Positions 250 to 61,950 of a stretch of DNA of 64,000 nucleotides are shown piece by piece. The notes under the pieces are model-generated. The model was not told the origin of the DNA. It did no database searches and saw only the letters and a list, made by a program, of their open reading frames with translations. The stretch spans positions 434,001-498,000 of the forward strand of contig RSEE01000010.1 in assembly GCA_003971905.1 (NCBI GenBank), given 5' to 3'. Source of the stretch: Moniliella sp. 'wahieum'. Taxonomy: Eukaryota > Basidiomycota > Moniliellomycetes > Moniliellales > Moniliellaceae. The position numbers were made by a program, and so were the translations under genes. Numbering within the stretch: position 1 is the first letter of the stretch; every line of letters starts with the position of its first letter.

Positions 250-270
250 GCGTTACGCGTTACGCGTTAC
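250..270. repeat. heptad micro-array, TTA-CGCG
   Basis: Three 7-bp units read as TTA alternating with the palindrome CGCG (equally ACGCGT plus T). Confidence 0.85.
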
Positions 271-572
271 ACCGCAGGGATTAAGCGCCAACAAGCCCAC
301 ACCTGTGGCACAGACACTGTGCCTAGGACTGGAACGACTTTTCTAGGCAGACGGCATGGTGGCGATCGCTTGTCGCATGCCCATGTCAGCCTCAGGCGAG
401 GGGCGGTGGGTGCGTACAAGCTGAGAATTCTACTGTGCTAGCAGGCGCCGTCCCACACTATATCGGGGAAGCTAGTGCCAGCTAACGTCTAACGCTCGTG
501 CAGGTCCCTATGTATCAGCCACAGCAACAAGCGCATCACATACATCAGGCCTCAGGCTCAGGGGCAGGCATC

Positions 573-593
573 ATGCATCATGCATCATGCATC
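573..593. repeat. heptad micro-array, TCA-TGCA
   Basis: Three perfect ATGCAT hexamers, each followed by C, so TCA alternates with TGCA. Confidence 0.9.
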
Positions 594-1408
594 AAGTGAT
601 TCTCCAGATCGAGCCCCCAGCGCCTGAGCGCTCCGCGAGCGCCTCAGCCAACGCATCCTCAGACTGGCCAGAGGCCGAGTGCTCAGTCTCAAGAACGAGC
701 GCCTGGGGAGAGAACTACTGACACTGACTTCCTAATCAAGTCATCGATGACTGGTATCGGTGAGCCGGAACGGAGCAAGATGGCGTTCGGTGCCAGTGGT
801 GCAAGCTGGTGCAAGACGGCGGGTGCACACGGTCGGATGTGCAAGACGATCGCAGGGTGCAAGAAGCGACACTCGGTTCTAGACAACCCTTTGATCCGCC
901 CCACTCCCGCCTCGCACAGCGGCCAACCGCGCCGGCGTATCCCTCGCCGCCCAGCCACAACCGGCCACTGATGATCGATGAGATCGATGAGACTATCCTT
1001 TCCCGCGCGTCCACGCTGTCCATGCACTCCCGCCTGTGCCCCGCCCGCATCGAGTACTGAGTGCTAGTACCGACTGACCACTTTGCTCCGAACCAATGCA
1101 GGTGCGCTGTCAAATGCCAGACAGGAGAAGTAATGTTGGACTTAGCCTCAACGTCTTCGACGTTGCTACTGCACTGATGCGATCGCTGACAAGAGCAGAG
1201 CAGCAAAGCGGCTATACTCCCGTCACGCATCACGTCATGATACCGACCAGACGACTACCAAGCCCACTAGTCCTGTACGCAATGCCACGCCCTACAGCCG
1301 GTTGGGCGGCAAGCTAGGACAACAGAGGAGCACAGCTGGACGAAAGGAATTGTTGCTTGTTCTTCACTCCCTCCAGTTACCACCCCCTCGCCCCCACACA
1401 CGCCTTTC

Positions 1409-3057
1409 ATGGACTCCGTAAACGATCTCTCCAAAACGCCCGACTCGATGCGCCTGATGCCCCGCCCGGGTACAGGCGCCAATCGTTCCGCCAGCACTAC
1501 TACTGGGTGGGGAGCCTCTGACTCAGTCTTTAACCTTGATCCCAACTCCAGCAAACAGGCGCTCACGGGTAATCCCACGTCCTTGGATGGGGTGCTCCAC
1601 CATCCTTATTCCCTCCCTGGCGGGCCCAGGGAAAAGCCTCAATCTTGGCTGGCAGCTCACAAAAAACTGCTGTTAACACTGGTCGGGGTGCTGGTCGCCC
1701 TCGCTGTAGCCCTTCCCGTTGGTCTTGGTGTCGGTCTGAGCAAAAAGAATACTCATGGAAGCGGAAATACCTCCAAGCCCAACAGCCCAGCACTCGACAG
1801 TAGCGGCAACGACCCCAGCAAAATTACCCCCCTGCCGTTTTGGGACTGGGCTGACAACAATCGAAAAGTCATGGGTGTATCTCTTGGGGGTGGCTGATTC
1901 TTGAACGTTGGATCGATGAGGATTGGTTCACCCAATATGCTCCTAATGATTGGGACGAGTGGCACTTTACCCAAACTATCGGCTCCAATGCGTCTCAAGT
2001 CCTGAGCGAGCACTATGACCAATGGGTCACTGAAGACGAGGTGGGACGATGTATCAACATGGAGTTAACCAACTGCGTATTCCTGTCGGATTTTGGCCGT
2101 TCATTCCCCTCGCAGACGGGGAACCGTACAGCAACTCGACCCAACTGCACTACCTCACTCGTATGCTCGGTTGGCTATGGAAGCGCACATGTACGCCGTT
2201 ATCGACCTCCATGGCATGCCTGGCTCTCAGGTACGTCACTTCCCTTATCCCTTTGGTAGCATCTACATGCAGCATGGTTCCTATGTTTCTGACCCTTCTC
2301 TTTTTTACAGTCGGGTGACCAATCTTCGGGACTCAACACGACCAATCCCACATGGTGGAATCAAGAAAACCAGGACCGATCAGACCAGACGCTGGCGTCT
2401 CTCATTACTTGGCTGTCCTATAACCCCTACAAGTCCGTCGTCAGCGCCATCTCTCCCGTCAATGAGCCCAACGGCGTTTTCCGCAGCACGCCAGCTAACC
2501 TGAACGTGACTCAAGCATTTTATGAGCGGCCGTACGAGACACTGCAAAAGGCTGGGTACAGTATGTTTTTCCACCATGGTTTTGCCTCAAATCCGGCGAC
2601 GTATTGGAAACCCTTTGCAACAGGGAAAAATGGGTCCATGCTTATCATCAATGACATCCGTACCCCGGATGGTACCCTGCTGTGAACAACGTGACGGAGA
2701 TTAACCAGAGAGTCTGCAAAACGGTGACTGATTATGATGGGTTCCCTGTCCCGATGGTCAAAACGGAATACTGTGTGATCTCGGGTCCGACGGATTCGGC
2801 GTGGAACAGCCAATACTATGCTACCAAACAGCAGCCTATGCTTCTGGAGCAGGATCCTTTTTCTGGACGTTCAAAGTGATGAATTCCACTTCGATGGTCC
2901 AGGCTGAATTGCCATTGAACCAAATGCATTTTCCTTCCTTCAACAAGCAACACTGGGGACCATTCCGTCCATTGGCACAGGCCAGTCTACGACCCAGTAC
3001 ATTGCTGCGCTTCCTAATCCAGCCTGTGGTGCGATGACCCCTACATACAACGCCTGA
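1409..3057 (+). CDS. membrane-anchored exo-beta-1,3-glucanase, GH5 (frameshifted)
   Basis: Probable glucan 1,3-beta-glucosidase of the type II membrane (exgD-like) group, trimming beta-1,3-glucan at the cell wall. The N-terminal ~90 residues are polar and cytosolic in style, followed by one hydrophobic anchor (KKLLLTLVGVLVALAVALP) and a Ser/Asn-rich linker. The GH5 barrel follows: LGG-WLILERW, LRIPVGFWP, VIDLHGMPGSQ, then ISPVNEPNG with the expected acid/base Glu in NEP. KTEYC probably carries the nucleophile. An intron with donor GTACGT and acceptor TTTTTACAG lies at 2231-2310. Similarity jumps frame near 1890 (five G where six are needed), near 2050 and near 2170, with more breaks near 2640 and 2840. 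The 3' end is uncertain; a plausible frame stops at 3055-3057. Either a pseudogene or indel sequencing errors; the latter is favoured because other genes here show the same pattern. Confidence 0.85.
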
Positions 3058-4407
3058 ACGCTTTATCCATGTTTGTATCGAGCAGAGCGCATCGTGCCCC
3101 TGAGATGTTATGAAGTGGACGATGCACCGCGTATCTCTTGACTGAAGTTGGTTTCCTCTCGTTTTGACTTGGCCTTTTCCCTACGGATTATCAGCCCCTA
3201 TCCCCGCTCCCTCTTTTTGCTCTGCCCAGGCCGCCATGATGTTCCTGACATTGTGGTCGATGACTTCTACTGTGTACTTGTTATCGGACTGTGCTACTTG
3301 TGTCTTTTGCATTTGTGTTATGTTGCCGAATGTGCATCCCTCCTTTGTACTGTGCGTTTCGTATATTCACAACGATGTTTCCCCCTTCCTGTTAGATTAT
3401 TTGGGTACATATATGTGTGTAGGCATCAGACGAACAATATCGATAATGGGAAGAGATGAAAGCTTTAAGGCATAGAGACGCAGGGGATGAGGCTTTCGTT
3501 TTCAAAGCTCGTAGGTGTGGGCCGTGGAACTTCGACGTGAGGAATGAGAGGTAGGGAGATATCTCCATATTATTGTCTACTACTTTTACGACAGGGTTGC
3601 TGTGCATTCCTTCGCTGCCCATATGACGATGAGTGAAGCAAAAACTAATGCTGGCCTTCTCTAGTTTGTGTAGCGATTGTGGGAGACCAGAGGCCGTCAT
3701 TGAAAAGAGGGTAGCAGTATGGTTTAACGTTTATGTTTCTCGATGACCCTTGGTCATTGTACCATCGCACATGCCTATAATGGTTTGTTCAACAAGTGTG
3801 GTTGTGTCGCCACAGATAAGTACACTTCAAAAGTGTTTTCCTTTTTCACAGTACCGCTATATTCAGCTTTTAACTCTCTCACGTCACTTACCAAAAGAAC
3901 TTTAAAAGGTGAACGGCCTCCCAGGACCTCGTTTCTGGGAGGAGTATGTCATACTCCTCAGCTCTGCTGGAAGTCCTTCTCATCTATTCACCGCCCTATT
4001 TCCTTCTCTCTTTCAGTGTATAAATCGTTGGCTTCCTTGGCACTTGTTGGTTCTATTTTTCTACCATCCTAATTCGGCTCCTGTCACGTTACAATGTGCG
4101 TCAGCTCCTGCAGTACTACTGGTCGATCACGTGGAGCGGAATCCGACAAATTCCGATACTTGTGGTGCGCAGTGCATTACGTGGTCCCCCGATGATCGAT
4201 GATCGATGATCGTTGGCATCGATGAGCTGCTGAGCAGGACTGAGCCGTTGCGCCACTGAGCTGGCTGGCTTTATTGCCTCAGTAGCTCAACAAGGTTTTG
4301 ATCTGGGCCACAGCGACATCTCAGAGCCACACAACAGCGTTGCTTTGTCCCACCAAATCGCCGCTATCTCTGCCATTCGCTTCTTCCTTCCCCCTTCCTT
4401 GCCACCC
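3058..4407. other. intergenic, no gene recognised
   Basis: This is the 3' flank of the glucanase and the 5' flank of the UBX gene. It is AT-richer than its neighbours and has only short, compositionally biased open frames. A heptad array lies at 4195-4212. A pyrimidine-rich stretch immediately precedes the ATG at 4408. Confidence 0.5.
4195..4212. repeat. heptad micro-array, TGA-TCGA
   Basis: Two ATCGAT hexamers each followed by G, plus a partial third. Confidence 0.8.
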
Positions 4408-6420: not shown

Positions 6421-9400
6421 ATGGCCGCGCCTATCTCGTCTGCCATCGGCGTCCTGTCGCTTCTGGACGAAGACGATGTCGATCTGCAGTCCTATGCTCT
6501 CGAGAAGCTTAACACTATTGTCGACCACTTCTGGGCCGAGATTGCTGACTCTGTGTCCAAGCTGTACGTCTTCAGTGCCCCCCTTCTCTTCGGTCTTCCA
6601 GCCACTGACCCCGCTGTAGTGAGACCCTATACGAAGATCCCTCTTTCCCACATCGTCAGCTCGCCGCGCTCATCACCTCCAAGGTTTACTTCCACCTCGG
6701 TGAGTTTGATGACGCCCTCACGTTTGCCCTTGGAGCTGGTCCCCTGTTCAAGCCGGTCGAGGATCGTGATGACGAGTACACCACCACCGTCGTGAGCAAA
6801 GCCATCGACACGTACATTGATCTATCTCATAAGCCCGACTCTGCTTCCGCAACAGACAAGACATTCCGTGAAGGCCTCACCGCCATCGTTGAACAGATGT
6901 TTGACCAATGTGTTCACGATGGAGAATACAAGCAAGCTGTCGGCATTGCTATTGAGGCCCAGCGGATCGACGTGATCAAGCGTGTATTTGAGGCGTCCCG
7001 CGATGTGGCCCTGCTGACTTACATCCAAGATGCCGCCATGGGTGTCGTTCAACGTCTTGACTTCCGCAAGGAGCTTCTTAATACACTTGTCGAACTGTAC
7101 AAGTCCCTCTCCTCGCCCGACTACTTTTCTGTCGCACAATGCTTCGTGTACCTGGCAGAGCCTCAGAGGGCAGCTCAGCTACTGGTTAACCTGACCAACA
7201 AAGCGTTTGACCCTGCCTCGGTTAAACTAGAGAACACAAGTGACGATCCTTTGTTAATCGTCTACCAAGTCGCCTTTGACTTGGCCGAATCAGCCACCCA
7301 AGAGTTCCTCGAGTCGATCCGCACCACGCTTAAGACCCACGTGAAAGATACACCGGCCCCAGCCCCTCCCGCTGCCGTTCCCTCCTCGACAGACACGGAC
7401 GGCGACGTCGCAGTTACTGAGGATGACCCATCCGACCCCCCTGGTTCAAAGGCAACTCCCTCTTCTGTATTGCAACGAATCCGCGCCATTCTCAAGGGTG
7501 AGGAGAGCATCCAGCTGTACCTCACGTTCCTCAAGACGAAGAATAACACCGATCCTCTGATCTTGAAGAACATCAAGGAATCGATTGATGGGCGCAACAG
7601 TGTGTATCACACTGCCATGTCCCTTGCCAACGCATTTATGAACGCAGGTACAGCTTCGGACGAATTCCTTCGTAACAATCTTGACTGGCTGATCAAGGCA
7701 TCCAATTGGTCCAAGTTTACTGCCACCGCCGCTTTGGGTGTGCTGAACCGCGGCAATCTCAAGGATGGAATTGACATTTTGCGACCCTACCTTCCCCGCA
7801 GTACTGGGTCCAATGCTTCGGTATACCAAGAAGGTGGATCGCTCTACGCCCTAGGTCTGATCCATGCCAATCATGGCGGAGAGGTGCTTGAACTTTTGAA
7901 GAACAACCTGCACAGCAGCAATGAAGTGGTTGTGCAGCACGGTGCTGCACTGGGTCTGGGTGCCGCTGGAATGGCCACCGGTAACGAGGATGTATATGAT
8001 GAGCTTCGCAATGTTTTGCTCTCTGATAACGCCGTTGCTGGTGAGGCATGTGGTTATGCTATGGGGTTGGTTATGTTGGGCACGGCAAACGAGGCCAAGG
8101 TTGAGGAGATGCTCGAGTACGCTCGTGAGACATCCCATCAAAAGATCACACGTGGCCTGGCCATTGGCACAGCCATGTTTTACTACGGAAAACAAGAGGC
8201 GGCCGAGGGTATCATTAGCCAACTTCTCGCCGATAAAGATGCTATTCTACGATACGGCGGTGTCTACACACATCGCTCTGGCCTACGCTGGCACAGGTAA
8301 CAACTCGGCTGTTCGTCGGTTGCTTCACGTTGCCGTCAGTGATGTGAGCGACGACGTTCGCCGCGCGTCGGTGACGGCGCTTGGGTTCCTCCTTTTCCGC
8401 AACCCAACGCAGGTTCCCCGCATTGTCGAGCTTTTGGCTGAGAGTTTCAACCCCCACGTTCGTTATGGCGCTACTCTAGCGTTGGGTATTGCCTGCGCTG
8501 GCACTGGGTTGGCCGAAGCAGTTGCGCTGCTTGAGCCTATGACCAAGGACCCAACCGACTTCGTCCGGCAGGGTGCCTGCATTGCCTTGTCGATGATTCT
8601 TATTCAGCAGAATGAGGCGCTCAACCCGGCCGTGGCGGCGGCCAGGAAAACGTTTGCCAAGATCTTGTCAGACAAGCACGAAGAGACCATGGCCAAGTTT
8701 GGGTCCGTTCTCGCTTCCGGGATTTTGGATGCGGGTGGCCGGAACATGACCATTTCCCTTCAGTCGCGCGGTGGGTCAAACAACATGCCAGCGATTGTAT
8801 CCATGGCACTCTTTACCCAGTTCTGGTACTGGTTCCCCTCTCGCCCATTTTGCTTCTCTGGCATTTACCCCCACGCCCTTGATTGGCTTGACGCGTGACT
8901 TGCGTGTACCCGACTTCAAGTTCATCTCGAACGCGCGTCCGAGTCTGTTCGCCTATCCGGCCCCCACCAAGCCCCCTGTTCAGAAACGCGCCCAAAAGCT
9001 CGAGGTGGCTGTGCTGTCCACGACGGCCAAGGCGCAGGCCCGTCAGCGGACCAAAGACAAGGCCCGTCGGATTGAGGAAGGCGGTGATGACATGGAGGTT
9101 GACGATGCGGCCGCCGACGGCGCGATTGGCGGGGACGAAGGGGCAGAAAAGAAGGAAGATGCCCAGGGGCGCAAGAAGCGCAAGCCTGAGTCTTCGTTTG
9201 AGGTGCTGCACAACTATTCCCGTGTCACTCCTGCCCAAGCCAAGTTTGTTTCCTTCCCCTCTGAGGGTCGTTTTGCCCCTATCCGCAGCCTGGCGAGCGA
9301 GGAGAACGATGTTTACGACATTAGCTCTATCTTGTCCAACCGTCGGCTGCTGGATATCGGTGAAACACCCAGCGTCTCTGGCCGAGCCACACCGAAACCC

Positions 9401-9841: not shown

Positions 9842-10105
9842 ACATAAGAATATTGCGGCCTGGTCCGGCGCTATGTCATGCAGCCAAATTGAATCGCCAA
9901 GTAACTGGCTCCCTTGCGGATGCAAAATAGTATCAGGTAGTCGTCTCTATCCCAGCGGAAGGTAACTGCATCGTGTCCATGGCCGTGCATTGGCCCGTCA
10001 CGCGTCACGCGTCACTAACGTTATTAAATAGGCGCGAAGTCGCTTGGGGAAGAAACATGCCCGTTGAAATATTCATTCTAATACCAAAATTCTGCTCCGC
10101 GCCAC
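9842..10105. other. intergenic spacer RPN2-QRI7
   Basis: Short spacer between two genes on the same strand. It holds a heptad array at 10000-10013 and an AT-rich stretch (TTATTAAATAG) that could serve the RPN2 3' end or the QRI7 promoter. Confidence 0.4.
10000..10013. repeat. heptad micro-array, TCA-CGCG
   Basis: Two ACGCGT hexamers each followed by C. Confidence 0.8.
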
Positions 10106-19662: not shown

Positions 19663-20617
19663 GGCGACGGGGGGAGGGTGGTGGGTCGCGAGGTGGGGTT
19701 GGCGCCCAGAGCGTCTCTTAGCGGCGGCGTGTGCGTGTGGGGCACAGCAACACGGCGGGCGCGACTGGCGCCGTGCCGGAGAAGGAAGCGGTCTGTGGGG
19801 TTGCGTGGGGGCAGCCAGGGGTTGTCACCGGGGGTGGTGGCTACGATGGGTGAGTGCCTGTGAATGTCGCAGTGGTGCACGCGACACTGGCCCTGTGCTG
19901 CCCATGCAGGCACCCGCACGGTGCATGTGGAGCAGAAGGCGAGCGAGCGAAAACGCACACTCGCCGGACATGGCCCTGAGCGCGAGCGTATTAACAAACC
20001 AGCTGCTAGCTCTGAGTATCTCCTGACTACATCCTGCGGGCCCAGTAGCTGGCGATGCGGGAGATGGGGGGATGGAGATGGAATTCCACAGCTAACAAAA
20101 AGCGCTACCGATGGGCCGTGATGTATAACAGGCTCCGGGCTCGGAGGCCAAGAGTGGAAGCCGTGGAACGTCTGGGATGCACTGCCCCCATGCACTGTGT
20201 GTATCGGGTCACGTGCAACTGAAGCTTGAAGGCCGATGGACTCTGGACCACTGGTGGTCAGCACAGGACTTACTCAGTGAACAGTCGGGGCTAATAAGCG
20301 AGGGAGATCAAGCTTCAAGGTCCTCTGTCTTCCAGAGACGGGGAAATGGCAAGATTGTGGGAGGAAACAAGACGCATCATCAGGCCTCTCAGGCCCTCAG
20401 GCAGGGAAGGAAAAAGCAAAGGGAAGGGGAAGAGCGAGATCAAGGCGACCATCGATCACAAGGTATGCCCAGAATTGGTACTTTTTGGAGCGAGCATATT
20501 CCATCAAGCCCCTTTTAGGTCTGAGCTCAGAACTCAGTCTGAGTACTGAGACTCAGTATCAGTGTAACAATGGGGGTGTAACATGTAAGCTCTAAGTTGG
20601 AGAGCAGTGTCATGCTC

Positions 20618-20631
20618 ATGCATCATGCATC
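20618..20631. repeat. heptad micro-array, TCA-TGCA
   Basis: Two ATGCAT hexamers each followed by C. Confidence 0.8.
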
Positions 20632-20657
20632 AAGCCAGTGCACCACTGTTGTTCCTG

Positions 20658-20676
20658 ACTGGGCCGTAGGCCCGGT
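20658..20676. repeat. GC hairpin (ACYGGGCC-GTA-GGCCCGGT)
   Basis: An 8-bp stem with a GTA loop. The third stem position is T opposite G (wobble) where the second copy at 28354-28372 has C. The flanking bases (TGA before, GGTC after) are also shared, about 24 bp in all. Confidence 0.8.
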
Positions 20677-22840: not shown

Positions 22841-22939
22841 GCGAAGGTGGCTTCACTCCGTGGGGTCCCCACATAGATGTTGGCCCATGACACCAACACC
22901 TCCCATGATACTTTCCAGTCAGTTCCTTCAATATCTTGT

Positions 22940-24890: not shown

Positions 24891-25439
24891 GTTGTGTGCG
24901 GAGGAAGAAAGGGGGACGGAAAACGGGTGGCGGTTGAAAATGAAGGTGCGTTATATCTAGCCCAGGCGATGGGGAGGGGGCGAGACGGGGAAAGTAAAAG
25001 GGGGCTGTGGTCGGGTCCGCTGGCTTGAGGCAGTCGAAAGCAGGCCATGCCAGGGCAGAACAGGAAGACTGGCTGGGTGCGGACAAATGTCCGCTAGCCT
25101 GGGCGCCCAATCTAGGCGTGGGTATACTGGCCCCGTGCTAGCGGGAATTTCCGCGGCTCACCGGGACAACCGGACACTCGCAAAATGCGATAGTGCAACA
25201 CTGGCGCCAAGCGCGACAACTGGTTTTTTAGAACCCGCATTTTTCCTTCGCGGCTTAGTGGGGCACTAGGTAGCACTACGCCCGAGATAGTCAGGAACCT
25301 GCGGGACAAGTCACATTCGTAGCCTATCATCGAATATCGTTGTGCCTCTTCTTCTGCCAGCCCCGCCAAGGGCAGTGCATCTCACTGCGGTTTCAGTGGC
25401 CCCGAGGGGGAAGTAGTGACATGTGATTGATGATCCATG

Positions 25440-25460
25440 ATGCATGATGCATGATGCATG
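25440..25460. repeat. heptad micro-array, TGA-TGCA
   Basis: Three ATGCAT hexamers each followed by G. Confidence 0.9.
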
Positions 25461-25579
25461 ATGTGCATGCATGGCGCAAGGATGTCACCCGTCACGCGCA
25501 TCACACATTATATATGCCGGCGGCACCCCTCCACTAGTTCATTAGTCACCGGTCCTTAATCGGCAATCACCGGACCGTC

Positions 25580-25593
25580 ATCGATCATCGATC
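25580..25593. repeat. heptad micro-array, TCA-TCGA
   Basis: Two ATCGAT hexamers each followed by C, flanked on both sides by TCACCGG words. Confidence 0.8.
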
Positions 25594-25748
25594 ACCGGCC
25601 ACTGGTTACACTCGGTGTCAGTATCAGTATTTGGCGTGGGTTCTGGGCGTTGCCGCGGCTGTCGTCTGGTGCTTGCCGGTGCTTGCGGCGCACCGCAGAG
25701 CACTTTTCGACCAGGGCCAAGCGATTGTGCGCTAGTGCTGTCCCCATC

Positions 25749-25781
25749 ATGCATCATGCATCATGCATCATCGATCATCGA
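25749..25781. repeat. mixed heptad micro-array, TCA with TGCA then TCGA
   Basis: Three units with core TGCA switch to core TCGA without loss of the 7-bp register, and TCA is constant throughout. Confidence 0.9.
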
Positions 25782-26714
25782 CAGTCGAGCTTAGGACCGA
25801 AGTCTCCAACCGGCCTAAGACCTAAGGCCTTCCTAAGGCCTAAGCGCCTAACCGGCCTAATCCTCGGTTCCTGCGTACCTAGTGCGGCGTCTAAGAAAGG
25901 TATGTGGTGTTGATGCATGGTACATGAAATTTGAAAGATCTAAGGCCATATAGATCACCAATCGACGATCAATCAATGTAGGTAAAGAAAAGATCGTATG
26001 TCGCGCGACCGGCGACCCGAATCCCCTGCGCCCCCTCCAGCCCTTGGCGCACTCGACAGGGAAGATGCACGATAGTCAGTGTCTAAGTGCCGCGTTAGAT
26101 TGCTGCAAGTCAGTCTTACACCTTTAGGCAGCTCTGGACGCCGTCTTCGCATCGCTCCGGCTGTCAGTGTTCAGCCCAGCAAGAACGATGCGCCTCGGCA
26201 GCGCTCCTGAGCGGACCAGCCTAAGGCGTAAAGCCGCTTAGCCTGCGCCACATTGTAGTGTGAGTCTGGAGTGCGCTGAGTGGGTAAAATACTGATGACT
26301 TCCATCGAGGCTCTAATACTGAGGCTCAGGCCTCAGGCGCTAAGGGCTCAGAGGCTCAGAGCTCAGACTGAGCTTCAAGGTCTCTCCTCGGGGCTAAGCG
26401 CTAAAGGCCGGAGGGTCTGAGGTACGGAAGAAGTATTAGTGGGGTGGGTGGGAAGGCTTGGGTGCTTGGGCCTGCTTGCACCTCCTGTTAGGCACAAGCG
26501 CGAGTCTTCAAGCTTCCAGCTTTAAGTCACTATAGTGAAATCGCTAGTCACTAGTGGTTATAGTGACTATTATAGTGACAGTCACTTGTGTCCATTCTCA
26601 AGCTCTCATATTCTCAAGCTCAAGCTCCAAGGCCCGTGACGAGTGCGCATGAGGCCTGAGCCTGAGCTGAGGCCCTGAGGCCCTGAGGGCCTTGCCAGGC
26701 CTTGCCTAGAGAAG

Positions 26715-26755
26715 TTACTAGTTACTAGTTATCGAGTTATCGAAGTTATCGATTA
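26715..26755. repeat. mixed micro-array, constant TTA with varied cores
   Basis: Six TTA triplets are separated in order by CTAG, CTAG, TCGAG, TCGAAG and TCGA. The core changes in sequence and in length while TTA is invariant. Confidence 0.9.
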
Positions 26756-26933
26756 TCCGATGTGAGCTGTTGAGCGCATGTGACATGTGGCATGTGAGCG
26801 CGTGCGCGTGAGGGGGGAGCACTGGGGGCTACTATACTACTACTACAGTTGGGGTCGTGGCGCTACTCGTTGAATCATGCACATGCATCAGGTGGGCAGA
26901 AGCCGTCTGTCCATGGCCTATCTATAGAGCATC

Positions 26934-26952
26934 ATGCATCATGCATCATGCA
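26934..26952. repeat. heptad micro-array, TCA-TGCA
   Basis: Two ATGCAT hexamers followed by C, and a third altered at its last base. Confidence 0.85.
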
Positions 26953-27192
26953 GCACGCGCCACGCACCATGCATCATGCGTTTTGCATTATGTATCACCG
27001 TATCACCTCTGCCCCTGTACCGGACTTTGTCTCTTCTATCTCTCGGCTGAAAGATTGCCTTTATATTTCCGTGTCTCAGTCGGGCGGAAGTTGCTAAAAG
27101 AGAACGCTGCTTGCCCCGGACTTCAGTAGCTTCAGTCAGATTTCTTCCGGCAGGAACAGCAGCACTACGACAGCTATGCACGCTGAAAGTTA

Positions 27193-27217
27193 AACGTTAA
27201 ACGTTAAACGTTAAACG
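27193..27217. repeat. heptad micro-array, TAA-ACGT
   Basis: Three AACGTT hexamers with spacer A and a fourth imperfect copy. Confidence 0.9.
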
Positions 27218-27774
27218 GTAAAAAGGACTACTGTCCTGCATGTCACATGTCAATGTCGTGCATGTCGCTATCGAATATGAACTGGTGACTAGCGTGACGA
27301 GTGACTAGGCTAGTGCCACAAGCCATGTTTAGCGTTGCAGGAGCCTACCCAGTGCCTACTCTGCCATTCCTTTTTCCCGTCCCCGACCTTCCGGGTCTTT
27401 TCTAGCTTTCAGCTTTAGAGTGAAGCCGAGGCCAGTCCTGGCTTGTATCCGGAGGCCGCAATGCGAACTCAACGATTGGCGCTTGGCGACCATCGACCAC
27501 CGATGAGCGCGATGAGCATCTATCATCAATCATTTTTCCCCCTTGCTTTGGTTTTGAAAATCGCATTACGTATTCCTATGGCCTAACCGATAATCCTCAA
27601 CTTACATGGTAGCCAACTCGCTTCGTACGTTCTTGACGTCCAATGTTTTCAACACACGATATGCATTGCGGAATAACACTGAGACAGAGTACACTGGGTT
27701 TCTCATTTCTACCACCTCTTTCGTAACGTGCAGCCTGTAACATGCGACTCGACTCCCGATGGGCTGTTCTTCGA

Positions 27775-27789
27775 TAATCGATAATCGAT
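27775..27789. repeat. heptad micro-array, TAA-TCGA
   Basis: Two ATCGAT hexamers with spacer A, preceded by an imperfect unit. Confidence 0.75.
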
Positions 27790-28154: not shown

Positions 28155-28320
28155 GTGGAACGGTGGCCGGTGGAACGGTGGCCGGTGGAACGGTGGCCGG
28201 TGGAACGGTGGCCGGTGGAACGGTGGCTACGGTGGCGAAAGGGGAACGGTGGCTAAGGTGGCAATGGTGGGGGGGAACGGTGGCTAAGGTGGCGAAGGGG
28301 GAACGGTGGCTACGGTGGCG
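28155..28320. repeat. 15-bp GTGG-rich minisatellite
   Basis: Four perfect copies of GTGGAACGGTGGCCG (28155-28214) are followed by a partial copy and about 90 bp of degenerate GGTGGC/GGAAC variants. Confidence 0.9.
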
Positions 28321-28331
28321 ACGCAGCACCA

Positions 28332-28372: not shown

Positions 28373-28417
28373 GGTCTCCTCGTATACTAGACTGTGGGCT
28401 CTGTGAACTGTGGTGTG

Positions 28418-28434
28418 ATTAATGATTAATGATT
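28418..28434. repeat. heptad micro-array, TGA-TTAA
   Basis: Two ATTAAT hexamers each followed by G, plus the first half of a third. Confidence 0.75.
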
Positions 28435-28802
28435 GGCCGCATTATGCATGACGCACGGTGAACTCATTGAGCACAGTCTCGGAGAGTTGAAGACATGCTA
28501 TTCTCTCCGCATATGGTAGGAAGGGTTGGGTTATTAATAATGCCGTATAGAAACGGGAGGGTACCCGTCGGGTGTATGAGAACTTCGTGTCAAAAAGTGA
28601 ACACCTTGCCGTGAACGTTGATGAACGCGTTGAACAACTGTAAGCTTATAAAGCTTTTTCCTGTTTTGGGCCACCGCGGGTCGCTAGTGTGTTTTGGCCA
28701 ACGTCTCCCTTATTCAGTCCCTCTCTTCAAGGCTTCAGGCCTGAGCCTCAGGCCCTCAATAAGCCTATAGGAGTTCAACCGTTGCCTTTTCTCACTACTT
28801 GA

Positions 28803-28956
28803 TGAGACTTTTGGAGTCCGGATGGTCCTCGAGGGTGATGCAATCGCACTGATGGTGGTGGTGGTGGCCCAAGCCATCCAGCAACGCCTACAGAGGAACT
28901 TCAAGCAGCGAGTCGCCACCAGGGGCTAAGCTGCGGAACAATAAGGGAAAACAGGA
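28803..28956 (+). repeat. left arm of ~155-bp inverted repeat
   Basis: Matches the reverse complement of 29045-29197. Shared blocks include GGATGGTCCTCGAGGGT / TGATGGTCCTCGAGGGT, GAGGAAC, AGTCGCCACC and GGCTAAGCTGCGGAACA / GGCTAGGCTGCGGAACA. The arms are clearly diverged from one another. Confidence 0.8.
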
Positions 28957-29044
28957 GAGATAAAACAACGGAGAACTCCTAGGCCTGAGGAGAAACTGAA
29001 GGGACATTGATGAAAGCACGAGCCACCCAATGGTTCAGCACTAG

Positions 29045-29197
29045 TACTGTTTTCTTTGTTCCGCAGCCTAGCCCCCGGTGGCGACTGTGGCTGCTTTTGA
29101 GATGTTCCTCGCGAGGCGGTGGTGGTTGGCGTAGACCACTGCTTCCACTACCACTAATGCAAATTGTGTGACCCTCGAGGACCATCAGGACTCCAGA
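29045..29197 (-). repeat. right arm of ~155-bp inverted repeat
   Basis: Reverse-complement partner of 28803-28956, separated from it by about 88 bp. In one frame both arms translate to a shared G-V-x-M-V-L-E-G word, suggesting the ancestral unit may have been coding, but no family is recognised. Confidence 0.75.
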
Positions 29198-30036
29198 TCT
29201 CATATCACCTTCAAGCTTCAACTGTCAACAAATCTCAGTATACATTACTCACCGTACTAAACATACTCAGTATATACTCACGACTTTACCGTTGCCGAAG
29301 CATCAAGTGTTACGTTTACCGTGACTAAGGTGACTATAGCTCAACTCCTGGCTTTCAGTGGTGGTAGACCTCACAGTACTCAGTGGGCAGAAAGAACCTC
29401 CGGGGACCGGTGCCCTCTCTAAACCGTTTGCGAGAGGACCACGCAGAACAGATCTCACGTGTGCCATGCCAGAGGTGCCACCCAGGGTGCACGGTCCAGC
29501 CTCGGTCAACGTTCAACAGGCTCGTCCATCGCTATTCCAACACATCCATACGGTTCAAAACGTTCTCATTGTGAAATGTATCGAGGCATAACGGCGAAGG
29601 AGTTGAATGTTGATTGGCAGTGACTTGGGAGGACTACACCTCTAAACTAATAGCGGAAGGTGCTAATATAAGACAGGATGAGAGATCATGTCGATCATGG
29701 GACTCGGAGTTGAAGGTGCGTTGGAGCTAATAGAGTTGGGTTTGTTGGGCCTGGGTGCAGCAGCATCTATTATTAGTCGATAGAACCTGGGCCATGGGCC
29801 CGTGACGATACAGTGAGCACATAGCGGATCATTCAACAGAAGCGATGTTGTGGTTCCGGACGAAGATGAAAAACGTCCCATGCATAGTTGTATTCGCATG
29901 ACCTGCATGACTGATGTTAATCACATCGCCATATATTATTGCTATTGCACCACACTCTAATATAACGGCTTGAAGTGCGGCTTGGGTTGGGCACTTCACA
30001 ATCGTCTACTCTCGCACACCATCCTACCGAGCTTTG

Positions 30037-50449: not shown

Positions 50450-50581
50450 TGAACTCGCTTCGATCCGAAGACAGCAGAGACAACCCTAGCGTCGTCACGC
50501 ATACGTCACGTCTCCGCGCCGCTTCTTCCACGTCGCACCCGCGCCTGCTCCCGCTCGCCCCACCACCGCCTCCCGCCCGCC

Positions 50582-52675: not shown

Positions 52676-52783
52676 ATTGTTTCTTCCCATCGTCCCTCGT
52701 TTGATGCCTTGTATTCTTCAAAATGGTTGCCCACATGTTTCCATTAGGCCTGCTGAATAGCTGGAACAATGATGGATTAGTCG
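52676..52783. other. short convergent spacer
   Basis: Only about 108 bp separate the SEC63 stop from the PMT stop on the opposite strand, so their 3' UTRs probably overlap. Confidence 0.6.
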
Positions 52784-55557: not shown

Positions 55558-56731
55558 GGCGGCCGGCGAGCGAAACGAGAAGGGGGTCAGAAGAGGTAAG
55601 GAGAGTGAATGGGTGGGAACGTGGCGTCGCAGAGAGCGGAGACCGAGAAGATGTGCTTCAAGGGCTCGCCGGCAGGGTGGCATGAAGCGATGGTGGTGCT
55701 TGTCTCGTTCAACGCCAACGTGGCGCCGCCGCGAAGAAATGCCACGTCGATAATCACAGATCGACGAAACTAACCCTAGGGCGAAACCCTAGTGTCCGTC
55801 ACAAGTTGGTGCCATAACGCGAACGCATGCAATGCTTTTATTTATTTCAGTGTGGTACACCAAAATAATCGCAGTATACAGCAACCCGTACCTTCACTGG
55901 CTCAGGCTTAGATCCATCAGTAGGTTTGGGATGGCTGCATCGTCGTTACTCATTTGTCCCCTGTTTGGCAAGTACTTGTTGGACATTCATTGCTCTATCT
56001 CTATAATAATACACTGATGTTCATCTCGTAAGGCCGGAGAGACATAAGAGTCATCAGAGATTCGAAGGGACAGAGAAGAGACGAGAAGAGACGAGAAGAG
56101 GCGAGAAGAGGCAAACAAAATGCACCCTCATCTTCATCATGTATTTACAGAGTCAAAGGTTGGGACAAAGAATCGTTTCGCTCATTCGGCGTGTGCTGCT
56201 TGTTGATGCCAAAAAGTAACCCAATCGCCGAGGACAGGTATATAAGGACCGCCTGGTGATCTCTTCGGCGCATTCGCTTCCAAACTCTGGATCCATAGCT
56301 CTTGGCGTGGATTAGTAGTAAGAAACATTTCAGTAGTATACATGTGGGCTGTGACATGTGAGCGCTGTGAGCTCCCAACTCAGTACCCATTCCTTTTGCC
56401 CGCTGCGGCTTGGTGGAACAGTAACCGGTAACCTCGTGTTTTTTTCCCTAGCAGTGGCATGGCGCTGCCAAAAAGTAACACACACAAGATGAGCGTAGAG
56501 TTTCCCTGTCCCCGCCTTAAGTTCTGTCAATGTAATGATATGAATGCATAATTAAGGCGATTAAAGCTTAAAGGCTCTTGAGTGCGCCCTCCGGCTGGTA
56601 CATAAACTTTAAGGGAAAGACAGCTCTCTCCTCTTGGTTCTGAGTATTAAAGAGAGCACTCGGTGACCGGCACGTAGAATGAAAATCATCAGGCTATATA
56701 TCTCTGATGTACACGTGACATATATAGGCGT
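55558..56731. other. intergenic with GA repeats and element remnants
   Basis: No gene. GAGAAGAGAC direct repeats lie at 56074-56114. ACCCTAGGGCGAAACCCTAG (about 55774-55794) is a short hairpin. Retroelement-like 3' ends are at about 56440-56535 (+) and, weakly, 56150-56190 (-). TAA-CCGG-TAA occurs near 56424. Confidence 0.5.
56440..56538 (+). mobile_element. 3' end of dispersed retroelement-like repeat
   Basis: Carries AGTTTCCCTGTCCCCGCC and TTAAGTTCTGTCAATG, nearly identical to the element ends near 61387 and 62870 but on the opposite strand. Confidence 0.6.
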
Positions 56732-58758
56732 TCAGTACCAAATGGGCAGGAGCAGCAAGAAGTGATGAATGATCAGGAATAGGAAAGGGAGGGACAGAAA
56801 GATGCGAGACAAAACAGGGCCATTGTAGCTTGCCTGGGGAACTAATACCCCTCCAATGAAGTGACGTGATTGATAATACAGAAGCCTAAGGCTGAATGGG
56901 TGATTCGGCCACCTTCTCCTGTGTGGGTGGCTTTCGATGTCAGTGGCAGCTGGAGATTCGGCCCCCTTTGCATCCTGGCGATCGATCTCTGCACGTCCAG
57001 TGTCACTAACTGGGCCATCCAACGTGGCCTCGGTCTGGACGGCAGCGTATGGCGAGCGAGCACGGATGGCCGCGCCCTTCCAGATCAAGATGAAAGGAAG
57101 GGGGATGGCAATAGCGATCAGAAGACTGAGCAGTAGACCAGCGTACTGAAAGCCCATGTTGTTGAACATCTGGTTGGTAAACAAGGGGAAGCTTGCGGCC
57201 ATTAGGTTACGAATGAAGCCTTGAGCACCAATGGCTGAGGCACTCGACTCCCCGTACGCATCAGTCAGATATGCCTGCACCGATTGGAAAATCCACACAA
57301 TTCCGATCAGAAGTACAGCGAGGCCGATTTCGGGGGCGATCCAATGCACCCACGTGTAGGGGGCCGTAAAGGAAAAGATGAACATGCCAATAGTGGATAC
57401 AATGCCCCCTGCGGCGCCGTAGTACAGGCGCACCTCGGGTATGGCATGCCCACCGTGTGCGTCGGCAGATTTCTGGTAGAGGTAAGAGTCGTGGAAAAGG
57501 AACACCCAGCCAATGAAGGTGCCAATGATTGGACCAATGTAAGCTAGACCGGTGTTTCCTTCACCCCAGCCACGCTTTGTGGAGAAGGCAATTGGAATGG
57601 CACTGAAGAGGGCAAAGATCAAACTCCACGTATGACAACCAGAGGGAGAAGAAGAGGACAACTGGTTCCTTCACAATCATTACCGCCGCCGAGTCGTAGA
57701 GACCTTGAGAAGTTCCTTCAAACTTGGCGTTTCCAATTCATCTCGAGAGCGATAACGGTTATCGCCTGTCTCCTTGCGCAGCTTCTTGGCTCGGCGCGAA
57801 AGGAGAGCACTGCCACGGGGCTCACGCAAGAAGATGCACTCTAGAATCAGTGCGGTGCCATTGATGGCCATTTGAATCCACTCGATGGCGCGCCAGCCCA
57901 GATTGTGGCGTGCATCAATGTATCCAGCATATAGAGGCGAAGCAGCTGTGCCCAACACGGCGACAAGGGTGAAGAGCGCGACAGGTAGCCCGATCTCGTT
58001 GGGACCCAGATTGAAGCGAGTGTTCCCGGAATGATCGTCACACCGGCTGCTCCAAAACAACCCGAAAAGAAGCGGCCAATAACAATTGTCCAAATATTCT
58101 GCGCCTCAAAGAGAGCCACGAACCAAATGACAAACCCAGCGTAGCAGATCAGGTAACGGGTTGCGCCCCAACAAACTCGGACACGGGCCCCAGAATAGGA
58201 GGAACCTACGAAGGAGAAAAAAAATCAGCAACGCATTTCCCCACATCAAAGCGAAAGCGGGTATAGTGGTGAAATACGTACCAGGGCAAAGGCTACGTTG
58301 AACGCGGTAAAACCCACACGTCCAAGTTCAATTCCTGTGTGTAATCCATCTCATGGTTAGCATTGTTCCCCAAAAAATAGGGGCATAGACGTACCAGATG
58401 CATGCAGCTCCTTGCACATTCTTGACACCGGAACCATAGGCGGCGGTTGCCAAACCGATGAAGAGGCACATGGCGCACAGGAGACTGGTGTTGGTCCATT
58501 TTTTCATCTTGGACCAGTTCATGGGGTTCAGGGGGTCGTCAGGCCCATCCCAGTCGACGAGGATGATCTTGCCCTCCGATACCTCTTTGAGGATATCCTG
58601 GTTAAGGTGGGTTACAGAACCATGATCGATACTGGGAGATGCTGTATGTGTCTCCGCCTCGGATGTTGCAGCTGCCTCGGGTCAGCGTCGGCTGTAGTGT
58701 ATTGTTCCTTACCAGGAAAGATGTCCGCGCGGGTGTTTGATTGCTTCTTGAGGACCAT
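56732..58758 (-). CDS. DHA1-type MFS drug:H+ antiporter
   Basis: Twelve-helix transporter, likely exporting small toxic compounds or polyamines. The start MVLKKQSNTRADIFPGKEQY is followed after a one-base loss (near 58680) by DQDI/KEVSEGKIILVDWDGP and NPMNWSKMKKW, the usual cytosolic lead-in of fungal DHA1 proteins. Then CAMCLFIGLATAAYGSG, two short introns (about 58393-58335 and 58283-58205), ALFEAQNIWTIVIGRFFSGC, a central basic loop (LSRRAKKLRKETGDNRYRSR) and the second half: GLAYIGPIIGTFIGWVFLF, GGIVSTIGMFIFSFTAPYTW, IGAQGFIRNLMAASFPLFTN and YAGLLLSLLIAIAIPLPFIL. The last ~40 residues are atypical and the true stop may lie before 56732 if another indel exists. Substrate unknown. Confidence 0.85.
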
Positions 58759-59472
58759 TGCAGGCAAATAAGAGCCGTCGCGATAACGGAGAGAGTTAAT
58801 AAGATGTGATGGAGATGGAAAAAGATGCTGATAAGAGTGGAAGGTAGAAGTAGTAGAGGTCGCAATCTGTGTTGGTGAGATGCTTTCCAACACGACGGAG
58901 AGGCACTGCTTTAATACAAGAACCGTCTGGCCAGATACAACCCCTATAATACTTTACTAATGAAGAGTAGCGAGACATAAAACATGGCGTGCCGCTTGCC
59001 GGCGAAACGTTTGAGACTCTAAATCTGTTGGACCTAGGAGTTAGGCCTTACGCCTTCTTGGACCTTAATAGGCCTCTTGAAGCTTGTGAAGGGGTTTTGA
59101 TCTTCTTAGACCTCAGATCTCAGACCACATTTTGGGCCCTGTCTGTACTGCGCATCAAAAAACCGGCGTAAGTGCTCCGATCCCCCTCATTTTCGCCTCT
59201 ATCCCATCTGGTGAATAGTTAGTACTAGCAGGAGAAACAGGAATTCGTCACCGTTCCTACACCCCCGCGGGGCTCCAGTCGGACCTGGAACGATGTATCG
59301 AACCGTTCTCTCCCCCGCATTGTTGTGGTGAACGCATGAACCGTGGATGATGATCGATGACGTCGATGACAGTGGCAAGTGGGCTCAGAGAGTGCGCTAG
59401 ATACTCAGGATGAGCCTGAGGCCTGTGAGATTTGAATCTGACGTCTGATGGATCTGAGATCTCTGAGATCTG

Positions 59473-59488
59473 AACGTTGAACGTTGAA
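59473..59488. repeat. heptad micro-array, TGA-ACGT
   Basis: Two AACGTT hexamers each followed by G. Confidence 0.8.
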
Positions 59489-59532
59489 CTTCAACCGTCA
59501 ACGTGTCTCAACGCGTGTGAGCTTCAAGCGTC

Positions 59533-59552
59533 AAGCTTCAAGCTTCAAGCTT
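59533..59552. repeat. heptad micro-array, TCA-AGCT
   Basis: Three AAGCTT hexamers with spacer C. Confidence 0.9.
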
Positions 59553-59585
59553 GAAGACACTGAACGCCGCTGATGATGATCGATG

Positions 59586-59598
59586 AACGTTGAACGTT
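59586..59598. repeat. heptad micro-array, TGA-ACGT
   Basis: Two AACGTT hexamers with spacer G. Confidence 0.75.
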
Positions 59599-59990
59599 CA
59601 GTTGAACGTGCGCTGAACTACCTTTTGGTACTGGTATTGAACTAAGCACAAATACTACCAATGGAGGACAAGTACAGGCATGTATTAGCTCCACAAGATG
59701 GTCTTTCCCCTTGGCCCTATTCATAGAGGGAGACGTACCCGGGAGACCCACAGCCAAGAAACAAGCAGTATATAAGAGTAATAACAGTATAGGTAAATTT
59801 GTGACTAGGCCTCCCTATTGCCTGCCTGCCTCTGGTCTCAGTGCCTCCGCACGCCTCAGCACCGCCTCAGCACAGCCTGTGACATGCTGACATCCCTGGC
59901 AGTATGTTCATCATGCATCATCACTATACCACTAGAGCAAAACTAGCAAATAGCCCTAGGAAGAAGTACCTCTTTTAGTACTTTCATGAG

Positions 59991-60015
59991 TAACCGATAA
60001 CTCGATAACCGGTAA
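59991..60015. repeat. mixed micro-array, constant TAA with varied cores
   Basis: Four TAA triplets are separated by CCGA, CTCGA and CCGG. Confidence 0.8.
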
Positions 60016-60078
60016 CCAGACGCCGCCGCTATGGGCGCGCTATCGGCTAATTATATTATCGATCATTAATCGATAATC

Positions 60079-60147
60079 ATCGATCATCGATCATCGATCA
60101 TCGATCATCGATCATCGATCATCGATCATCGATCATCGATCATCGAT
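60079..60147. repeat. long heptad micro-array, TCA-TCGA
   Basis: The longest array. About nine ATCGAT hexamers with spacer C, with one extra CAT triplet at about 60123-60125 that shifts the register once. Confidence 0.95.
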
Positions 60148-60502
60148 CATCGTCAACTAATATATTCCTTCCCCACGCTTGTTGATCAACTTGTCATCGA
60201 TACAGCGTCATGGATCTGTTCCTTGCAAAAAGCCCCACGCCTAGTCAACCTCTCTTCTACCATCGATATACCATGGGAAATCGATTCCTTTTGGGGAAGT
60301 TCAACTGTACACACCTCGGTGCATCATCAGATGAGATGCTGTGAGAGTGTGCTTTCCGAAAAGTTGCGTGTTGCCGCAAGGTCAATGTGGAAAAATAACC
60401 CTGAAGGAAGGATATGTCTTGTGCCGCTGGCGTACTCACGCAACCACGTGCAAAAGCCAAAATCTCTATATGCTGTAACTGTACCATTGACATGTGACAT
60501 GT

Positions 60503-60620
60503 GACAGAGCTTTAAGGCTGGGACAAAGAAACGCTCTCCTGTACCCCCAACAGGCGAAGCACGGCGGGGCCTGTGGGGGTTGGTGGAAACTGTGGAGGAG
60601 CTGCAGCGAGAGACACAAGG
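60503..60620 (-). mobile_element. 3' end of dispersed retroelement-like repeat
   Basis: On the minus strand it ends TTTGTCCCAGCCTTAAAGCT-CTGTCACATG, matching the shared end with small changes. Nothing coding is recognisable in this copy. Confidence 0.5.
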
Positions 60621-60835
60621 GTGCGGAGAAACTGAGACCAGATCACTGTGAAGACAGCGTGGTGGCTTTTAAATTTTATGCCGTTGCTGCGCCGCTGTCG
60701 CGCTCTTGGCCCTCGCTTCTGCCGCAACCTATCGACTCACTTAGTACTCAACTGAGTCACTGATGCACTGAGTTACTAGTTACGGATGCCTTGATGCCGC
60801 GCCGTACAAAGTAACGTTGAACGTTTTCCAGTCTG

Positions 60836-60849
60836 AGGCCTGACGCGTG
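60836..60849. repeat. mixed heptad pair, TGA with GGCC and CGCG
   Basis: AGGCCT-G-ACGCGT-G; TGA is constant while the core differs. Confidence 0.75.
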
Positions 60850-60882
60850 ACGTGACGCATGAGGGCGGCCTGAAGCCCTGTG

Positions 60883-60896
60883 ACATGTGACATGTG
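60883..60896. repeat. heptad micro-array, TGA-CATG
   Basis: Two ACATGT hexamers each followed by G, and a partial third. Confidence 0.8.
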
Positions 60897-60937
60897 ACAT
60901 GACATGCATGACATGTGAAGTGCATGTGAAGCTTTTG

Positions 60938-60951
60938 AAGCTTGAAGCTTG
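60938..60951. repeat. heptad micro-array, TGA-AGCT
   Basis: Two AAGCTT hexamers with spacer G. Confidence 0.8.
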
Positions 60952-61177
60952 ACGGTTGGAATTGAATATTGGAGCTTGAAGCTTCAAGAACCTCTAGCTT
61001 GAAGGCAGCTCTCGTAGCGAGCTTGCAGTGGCCTCAACGCCTCAGCACCTCAGTACCTCTGGTAATGCTGAGGCCGAGGCTGAGGCTGAGCAGCGCTTGC
61101 TCAGCTGAGCAACCCTCAGGCCTGAGGGCCTCAGGTCCCCTGCCGCTATTATCATTAGATTATCATTAGACGACTTG

Positions 61178-61192
61178 AAGCTTGACGCGTGA
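61178..61192. repeat. mixed heptad pair, TGA with AGCT and CGCG
   Basis: AAGCTT-G-ACGCGT-G in one 7-bp register. Confidence 0.75.
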
Positions 61193-61268
61193 CGAGGGGT
61201 CACCGGTCACCCTACGGATCCCTTTTTAAGCTCTGAGACTTCACCGATCGGCATGGCGCCCATCCCGG

Positions 61269-61318
61269 AGGCCTCAGCCTGAGGCCTCAGCCTGAGGCCT
61301 GATGCATGATGCATGATG
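61269..61318. repeat. mixed micro-array, GGCC to TGCA with TGA
   Basis: Three AGGCCT hexamers, partly separated by AGCCT words, pass directly into two ATGCAT-G units, with TGA kept at the junction. Confidence 0.85.
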
Positions 61319-61386
61319 TGTATGATGCCTGATCGAGATCTCGCTGACGTCCAAACCCTTATATTGATCCCTATATTGATCCCTAT

Positions 61387-61950
61387 CATTGACAGAACTT
61401 AAGGCTGGGACAGGGAAACGCTATACGCCTAAACTGTCACAGTCGGGGCTACAGCTACAGCGAGGGAGACCAGAATCGGACTACGCCAAGGGGTGTAGCA
61501 ATCGTTCGTGGGGAAGAAGCAAGAACAGAGGATATATGGTGCGAAGTGGAAGAAACAGGGAAGGAGCGAGACGCTCGAGACGAAGAATTTGGAAAATGGG
61601 AGCGAGATCAGCCAAACTATGACATAAACGGACCGGTTACCGGTTACTCAACTTGCGTGAGTTACTTGGTAGCGCCACTACTGCTAGGGAACCAGCAGGA
61701 TCGCCATGATACCAGGACCCTCTGGTGCTCGCCATCTGGTCCCGTACCCGATGTAGCGCATGTGGACACGGATGAACGCGGTAGACATCCGAGCGAGGAA
61801 CCATTTCCATTGAGATTCACAGTAGTCAACTATAGTCAAATCCTTCCAGTGCGCAAGCATCTTTCCCGCTGTCTCGGTGCCGTAATAGTATATCCTCGCG
61901 TCGTCAAAACCAGGAGGGGAAAACGGCTCTTGCGTGCATCCCTGGTACTT
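61387..61950 (-). mobile_element. 5'-truncated LINE-like element, copy B (decayed)
   Basis: On the minus strand, a decayed coding part (about 61950 to a TAG at 61684-61686) ends VHMRYIGYGTRWRAPEGPG and ILLVP-stop, then an untranslated stretch leads to the shared end CCCTGTCCCAGCCTTAAGTT-CTGTCAATG. Similarity to copy A stops abruptly at about 61950, as in 5' truncation. The frame is interrupted by small indels. Beyond its 3' end lie two ATTGATCCCTAT direct repeats. Confidence 0.65.
61632..61646. repeat. heptad micro-array, TTA-CCGG
   Basis: Two ACCGGT hexamers with spacer T. Confidence 0.75.

Follow-up and report, generated by a model that had tools for sequence, protein, structure and literature searches.

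TNA-centred 7-bp repeats and their palindrome-forming insertions in non-coding DNA of the basidiomycete Moniliella sp. 'wahieum'

The DNA analysed here is a stretch of 64,000 bp from the basidiomycete Moniliella sp. 'wahieum' (contig RSEE01000010.1; G000:C10:434001-498000), hereafter the window, which is part of a 69.5-Mb assembly of 223 contigs. It includes eight Pfam-supported open reading frames (ORFs; 8,643 bp) and, outside them, many short repeats in which the trinucleotide TNA alternates with a self-complementary 4-mer, here called the core. The initial annotation had described these repeats as a class of 7-bp arrays, and the class is real: the window holds 38 perfect tandem heptamer runs of at least 14 bp, i.e., of two or more units, and 29 of them are class arrays, against 0.09 expected and a maximum of 1 in 100 resamplings. 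When runs of at least 12 bp are counted, the window contains 70 (1.36 expected; resampling maximum 6). Expected counts were obtained by second-order Markov resampling in 1-kb blocks, which is a model of local composition and not true neutral sequence. The excess, which the initial annotation had proposed to compare with shuffled intergenic sequence and with the genome beyond the window, holds in an independent 200-kb sample picked before inspection (C1:300001-500000; 264 kb together with the window), where 48 class arrays of at least 14 bp were found vs 0.3 expected (30 resamplings). In this sample self-complementary units make up 50 of the 90 heptamer runs, and 48 of the 50 are of the A....T plus N type; the share of the class among random 7-mers is about 2.7%. 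Word counts over the whole genome, overlapping matches included, gave 91+91 places for TCATCGATCATCGATCATCGA vs 0+3 for the pattern read backwards, and 105+120 for TGACATGTGACATGTGACATG vs 0+0 for the reversed word. The enrichment is confirmed as real and genome-wide, not confined to the window, and in non-coding DNA the motifs look like the mark of some DNA-cutting or DNA-copying process.

One rule unites cores of unrelated sequence, as had been claimed, and the class is not an ordinary microsatellite. All 16 palindromic 4-mers were found between TNA trinucleotides with the same N, and all four N were found, each enriched 30- to 45-fold. TNA is identical within an array, as had been described. 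Same-N pairs flanking a palindromic 4-mer number 255 in 264 kb, vs 11.6 expected (22x); the equivalents of TNA are not enriched in the same DNA (observed/expected: ANT 3/6.2, CNG 27/29.8 and GNC 21/34.6). Such pair counts overlap inside long arrays, and the cleanest test is given by isolated pairs, defined as those with no further TNA at -7 or +14.

Of the architecture first proposed, the rule of TNA plus 4-bp core stands, whereas the description of the class as mainly arrays does not: of 180 chains containing one or more palindromic cores, 116 contain just one, and exact class runs number 70 at 12 bp vs 10 at 19 bp. The elementary object is 12 bp long, TNAWX-X'W'-TNAWX or its reverse complement (primes denote complementary bases); its only fixed part is T.A, N and the core being nearly neutral, and longer arrays grow from it by 7 bp each. 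Above the 10-bp seed, 12 bp is the commonest length of a class run, and 53 of the 70 exact 12-bp runs carry the two mirror-image end points, 23 as TNAWX-X'W'-TNAWX and 30 as its reverse complement; the end points of 9 of the 10 exact 19-bp runs are as in the 12-mers. Isolated palindromic pairs in which one flank and not the other is completed occur 34 and 35 times, vs 0.25 and 0.40 expected, and isolated non-palindromic pairs, summed over the four flank classes, 73 times vs 78.5 expected. A symmetric 12-mer, W'TNAW-XX'-W'TNAW, was ruled out as the unit by phase analysis (4 of the 70 exact 12-mers). A plain 7-bp duplication was also rejected, since isolated both-sided cases (2 vs 0.45 expected for non-palindromic and 4 vs 0.25 for half-palindromic pairs) are far rarer than one-sided palindromic ones; isolated both-sided 14-bp cases number 12 vs 69 one-sided.

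The same unit emerged from a generalised search on both strands for a centre followed by a sequence p, the reverse complement of p, and the centre and p again. The search peaks at a centre length of 3, p = 2 and T..A, with 291 cases vs 1.7 expected. For centre length 3 the totals are 15/4.2 (observed/expected) at p = 3 and 3/0.3 at p = 4, and for p = 2 they are 49/13.5 at centre length 4 and 54/5.0 at centre length 5. The weaker centre-4 and centre-5 signals at T.A are attributed to joins in which one or two more flank bases are kept, for which the counts are 16/0.2, 8/0.4, 15/0.2 and 10/0.0; the flank duplicated in the scars, as the 12-bp units and their variants are called here, is mostly 5 bp long, and 6-7 bp in the rarer forms. 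Centres of the types A..C, A..G, C..T and G..T (p = 2) gave 19, 29, 43 and 35 cases and only 2, 5, 6 and 9 after class runs were masked, so that they are mostly TNA arrays read in another frame. Alternative splits of the 7-bp insertion (76-103 cases each) overlap long arrays and are inseparable in that count. Once period-7 runs of at least 10 bp are masked, TNA-centred odd palindromes and A....T hexamers show no excess; as freestanding palindromes are thus not in excess, the effect is limited to the insertion structure and its relatives. Hairpin thermodynamics alone is ruled out by the lack of enrichment of G.C-closed centres, even-length self-complementary units are not clearly enriched (45 of 250 runs of 6-mers against an expected fraction of about 0.20; 3 of 30 runs of 8-mers against about 0.08), and the earlier remark that three heptads, at 21 bp, match two helical turns found no support.

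How the unit arises can be read from diverged second copies, for which C223 was used at the right end of the window and C25 for the C1 sample. C223/C10 and C25/C1 are diverged pairs of long regions, which may be alleles (of a dikaryon or a diploid) or duplicated DNA; three small pieces of the window show 96-98% identity and the four array-rich pieces 90-95%. The aligned copies amount to a few kilobases, mostly picked for containing arrays, and gap placement is ambiguous in repeats. At three sites the window is filled and C223 is 7 bp shorter. The scar TAAAG-CT-TAAAG lies on the forward strand at 56562-56573 (with one more base of the run, to 56561), where the window reads TAAAGCTTAAAG and C223 has a single TAAAG. 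On the reverse strand, the 12-bp scar GGTAA-CC-GGTAA at 63529-63540 (window GGTAACCGGTAA) stands against a single GGTAA, and CATCA-TG-CATCA at 59909-59920 (one more base of the run, to 59921; window CATCATGCATCA) against a single CATCA. The fourth site, at 60773-60785, has an unexpanded TTACG in TTACTAGTTACGG of the window and TTACCAGTTACGCGTTACGG in C223, where TTACGCGTTACG stands opposite TTACG and a 7-bp insertion creates the core CGCG. At all four, no palindromic core is present in the short copy, and the long copy differs from it by 7 additional bp, made up of two flanking bases inverted and five copied directly. It follows that the event makes the palindrome, and that the palindrome is neither a prerequisite nor an input motif: the second half of the core is the reverse complement of two nearly neutral flanking bases, and it is seen only where the insertion is present.

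Further differences between the copies follow the same pattern, copy number varying in 7-bp steps. All 9 size-7 indels lie within class sequence, with the extra unit base-changed in two of them, 2 of the 4 size-9 indels obey a 9-bp form of the rule and 3 of the 4 size-14 indels lie within class sequence; this tally includes the 63328 piece, and a separate indel histogram was drawn without it. The 9-bp variant is exemplified by TGTGAGC-GC-TGTGAGC at 56357-56372, for which C223 has a single TGTGAGC. The longest array of the window, with 11 perfect TCATCGA units at 60076-60152, is shorter in C223. Two-sided arrays differ as well: TGA-GATC-TGA-ACGT-TGA-ACGT-TGA at 59464-59489 corresponds in C223 to two GATC and one ACGT, and an array at 61293-61318 with GGCC once and TGCA twice corresponds to GGCC twice and TGCA once. 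The core-switching scar CTTGAAGCTTGACGCGTGACG at 61174-61194 can be derived from CTTGACG by one event per side of TGA, and core switching within arrays is accounted for by events on both sides of one TNA. A 19-mer on the forward strand, TGACA-TG-TGACA-TG-TGACA at 60488-60506, lies within the first bases of a dispersed repeat and is common to C223; among four other copies of this repeat, three have one TGACA and one has TGGCA, which suggests that the 19-mer arose by gain and not by loss.

The arrays had been said to avoid exons, and none of the 70 window runs of at least 12 bp lies inside the eight Pfam-supported ORFs. Over the 264 kb, of 179 such runs, 1 falls in ORFs of at least 400 aa (40 kb), 11 in ORFs of at least 300 aa (96 kb) and 27 in ORFs of at least 200 aa (151 kb), many of the latter ORFs being presumably spurious. 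Since a 7-bp insertion shifts the frame, selection is a sufficient explanation for the near absence of scars from coding DNA. A 10-bp match, TGACGCGTGA at 8889-8898, lies in the RPN2 frame, where it reads through as protein; judged by eye, it is probably a chance match and no scar. A stop-codon role was considered for TNA and set aside: as TNA always reads as a stop codon on one of the strands, frames are closed trivially, and no function is inferred from this.

The reading that we tentatively favour is that the motifs are scars of recurrent insertion at TNA through a hairpin-capped break and P-nucleotide joining, followed by slippage. A putative dimeric nuclease or transposase-like enzyme would cut symmetrically around TNA, at NN-TNA-NN, with a 7-nt stagger, the cut ends would be closed as hairpins, and opening of the hairpins two bases from the tip would give 4-nt self-complementary overhangs. 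End joining that retained one overhang (two P nucleotides) and trimmed the other flush to TNA would produce either mirror form of the 12-mer, and joins with less complete trimming would be the rarer 8- and 9-bp forms. From two units on, ordinary slippage would extend or shrink the array, and purifying selection would clear the scars from exons. An inverted dinucleotide adjoining its source without a loop is the hallmark of an opened closed hairpin end. In the scars the two inverted bases touch their source without a loop, from which we infer hairpin opening; an inverted flank end, as a two-base reverse complement, stands beside the duplicated flank in 69 isolated cases vs 0.65 expected. Joins with extra flank bases would reflect variable trimming within the 7-nt stagger, and the 5-7-bp duplications are compatible with a trimmed 7-bp duplication, short of proof.

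Hairpin-capped breaks are known from other systems. P nucleotides at V(D)J joints are mostly two bases long, and the hairpin opens chiefly two bases past the tip; the coding joints made by RAG/Artemis resemble the scars in carrying, in inverted form, a short stretch of the end's own terminal bases (mostly two), which results from the opening of a closed hairpin next to its tip (PMC3528771). The scars differ in having no recombination signals; any TNA serves, the flank is duplicated too, and events recur per site. Kat1 of Kluyveromyces lactis, a domesticated hAT transposase, makes hairpin-capped breaks, and the favoured model would share hairpin-capped flanking ends at the break with hAT footprints (PMC4763223). 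In contrast to the 8-bp target duplications of hAT elements (PMC4763223), the scars duplicate 5-7 bp, and no element, ends or transposase were found here. Membership of hAT, or of any known transposon, is not shown, two of the defining features looked for being absent from the 264 kb. A narrower form of the model, in which a dedicated or domesticated hairpin-forming nuclease acting at NN-TNA-NN breaks nuclear non-coding DNA genome-wide, moves no element and leaves V(D)J-like P-nucleotide scars at tens of thousands of sites, is regarded as rather unlikely; the 109 class runs of at least 12 bp in the 200 kb of C1 extrapolate to about 38,000 over the 69.5-Mb assembly with second copies counted.

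Several results weigh against the hairpin-break reading. No enzyme was found, and no element either: the 264 kb contain no 40-6000-bp insertion that has 10-bp inverted ends and lies between 7-bp NNTNANN repeats (the search tolerates one mismatch, and its 13 matches at 7-bp NNTNANN are pairs of array copies). Five-bp TNANN repeats with inverted ends gave 5 candidate matches, no more than other centres (0, 9 and 10), and the 8-bp duplication of the hAT type was not found either, as no TNA-centred 8-bp repeat with inverted ends occurs in the 264 kb. The search for the hAT dimerisation domain had no match, but all 14 control genomes were equally without one, which leaves this search uninformative. 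The two-base length of the P tract varies less than would be expected of end joining. Half-palindromic isolated pairs with one completed flank show a residual excess (21 vs 7.6 expected) and, together with the palindromic isolated pairs in which neither flank is complete (35 vs 6.9), are best read as decayed copies. A CNA (TNG) centre occurs 18 times vs 2.0 expected and persists when class runs are masked, perhaps as arrays with T mutated to C that went on expanding, and several 6-bp forms are 5-12 times above expectation. Finally, deletion between 5-bp repeats could also yield the short copies, and for this reason it is mostly by inference that a single event is called a gain or a loss.

Replication template switching is the main rival, and a possible one. 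Here, the nascent strand, having copied TNA and the adjoining bases, would fold back on itself, or onto a displaced strand, over two bases and re-enter the template five bases back, giving the 7-bp insertion without a nuclease. No mobile element is required for it, nor was one seen in the 264 kb, and the about equal numbers of the mirror products, 30 and 23, agree with it. Two-step fold-back switches that extend palindromes have been documented in rad27-deletion yeast, and, like the scars, join inverted copying with direct duplication within a single insertion; the yeast examples differ in that they begin at inverted repeats already present and in their larger (one insertion of 66 bp) and variable size, and the available excerpt of that paper mentions no T.A requirement (PMC5677150). 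If base pairing alone decided, C.G and G.C centres would be favoured no less than T.A, yet ANT, CNG and GNC show no excess; a fold-back normally needs complementary arms beforehand, which the four short copies, without a palindromic core, do not offer; and the step sizes are unusually fixed.

It is doubtful that the scars are excision footprints of a sequence-specific mobile element with a short TNA flank duplication that is now rare or was missed; the hairpin chemistry would be that of the favoured model, with an ordinary transposon driving it. Transposases that make flank hairpins are expected to leave flank-derived footprints with P nucleotides, and the genome is rich in dispersed repeats. 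No element with matching flank duplications was found in the 264 kb, however, and the density of class runs of at least 12 bp, 109 in the 200 kb of C1, would demand an extreme number of excisions. Hairpin-capped flanks of the Hermes type, which would suit this explanation, have been described (PMC4763223).

Ordinary slippage of hairpin-forming heptanucleotide microsatellites, with self-folding units favoured, is very unlikely to explain the class. Heptanucleotide microsatellites and minisatellites share with it the tandem 7-bp units and stepwise length polymorphism, as in the 7-bp copy-number steps between diverged copies and the perfect 11-unit array at 60076. Slippage, however, predicts full two-unit 14-bp repeats, and not a predominance of 12-bp runs with preferred ends; it also leaves unexplained the lack of enrichment of G.C-closed units and the de novo insertion at non-palindromic sites. 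Unlike in microsatellites, the unit of the scars must consist of TNA and a self-complementary 4-mer of any base sequence, and the majority of copies do not form tandem arrays. Slippage is therefore contradicted as the origin of the units and likely as the driver of long-array growth. That the arrays are under selection as binding sites of a regulatory or chromatin protein reading TNA every 7 bp is extremely unlikely, for although the runs lie mostly outside long ORFs and seem by eye to cluster in long non-coding stretches, core and N are nearly neutral, single-core chains predominate (116 of 180), the arrays differ between otherwise similar copies (90-98% identity in aligned pieces) and no protein can require self-complementarity of arbitrary bases.

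In fungi, short palindromic insertions that are optional have been reported from non-coding DNA, namely the (A)n/(T)n palindromic repeats in the mitochondrial DNA of Fusarium, alongside which the double-hairpin elements of Allomyces are cited; these repeats are mitochondrial, have mononucleotide arms and, in the available excerpt, neither a 7-bp rule nor a T.A target (PMC7218506). A published description of the TNA 7-bp rule was not found in the open-licence literature, which is no proof of absence in print. With this rule, a simple mutational event replaces a collection of odd arrays: the inserted bases are predictable from the flank, and both the origin of unrelated palindromes and the switching of cores within an array are accounted for. 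If the events are nuclease-driven, they would be a fungal, genome-wide counterpart of hairpin breakage of the V(D)J type, and if replication-driven, a template switch of unusual sequence specificity. Should the dedicated nuclease exist, the system would be a self-palindromising mutator in which a hypervariable repeat could start from any TNA. Any eukaryotic genome can be searched for the rule, which yields very dense, variable markers, and the diverged second copies are useful for indel phasing.

Further arrays were mapped in the window. The unit is TCATGCA at 568-594, 20616-20632 and 26929-26952, TTACGCG at 250-270, TCACGCG at 9996-10015, TGATCGA at 4190-4212, TGATGCA at 25436-25463, TCATCGA at 25578-25594, TAAACGT at 27189-27217 and TAATCGA at 27771-27789. 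A core-switching array at 25745-25781 keeps TCA constant and passes from the core TGCA to TCGA, the array at 26713-26757 consists of TTACTAG followed by decayed TTA-TCGA units, and an exact 19-mer, TGATT-AA-TGATT-AA-TGATT, lies on the forward strand at 28416-28434. The CNA (TNG) version of the 12-bp rule is found outside TNA-class runs, e.g., at C1:414302 and C1:425537. Same-word pairs of TNA-centred pentamers of the CTSAG, TTSAA or GTSAC type occur at distances of 8, 9 and 11 bp 7-10 times as often as expected, of which the 8- and 9-bp scar forms account for only part, and dense clusters of these pentamers at other spacings lie at 61032-61130, 26321-26380 and 59426-59610, and at 2200-2900 of L033.

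Searches for tRNA genes and Rfam families had no match, and trees of RPN2 and RPC2 place the sequences among fungi, RPC2 adjoining Agaricomycetes together with three other sequences. Dispersed repeats are also present. The one of about 480 bp at 62846-63327 recurs in at least 35 other copies, 94-99% identical, and is absent from the C223 counterpart; it is likely a recent insertion, with a short flank duplication, perhaps TA. The repeats at 61431-61625 and 60507-60690 have the common opening TTGACAGA.CTTAAGGCTGGGACA, or one near it, and the former, a 195-bp stretch, recurs at least 38 times elsewhere at 91-93%. A minisatellite of GTGGAACGGTGGCCG-like units at 28155-28323 has relatives on several other contigs, and a repeat of about 240 bp at 28798-29042, with more than 30 copies near 88% identity, is followed directly downstream by an inverted partner at 29050-29207.

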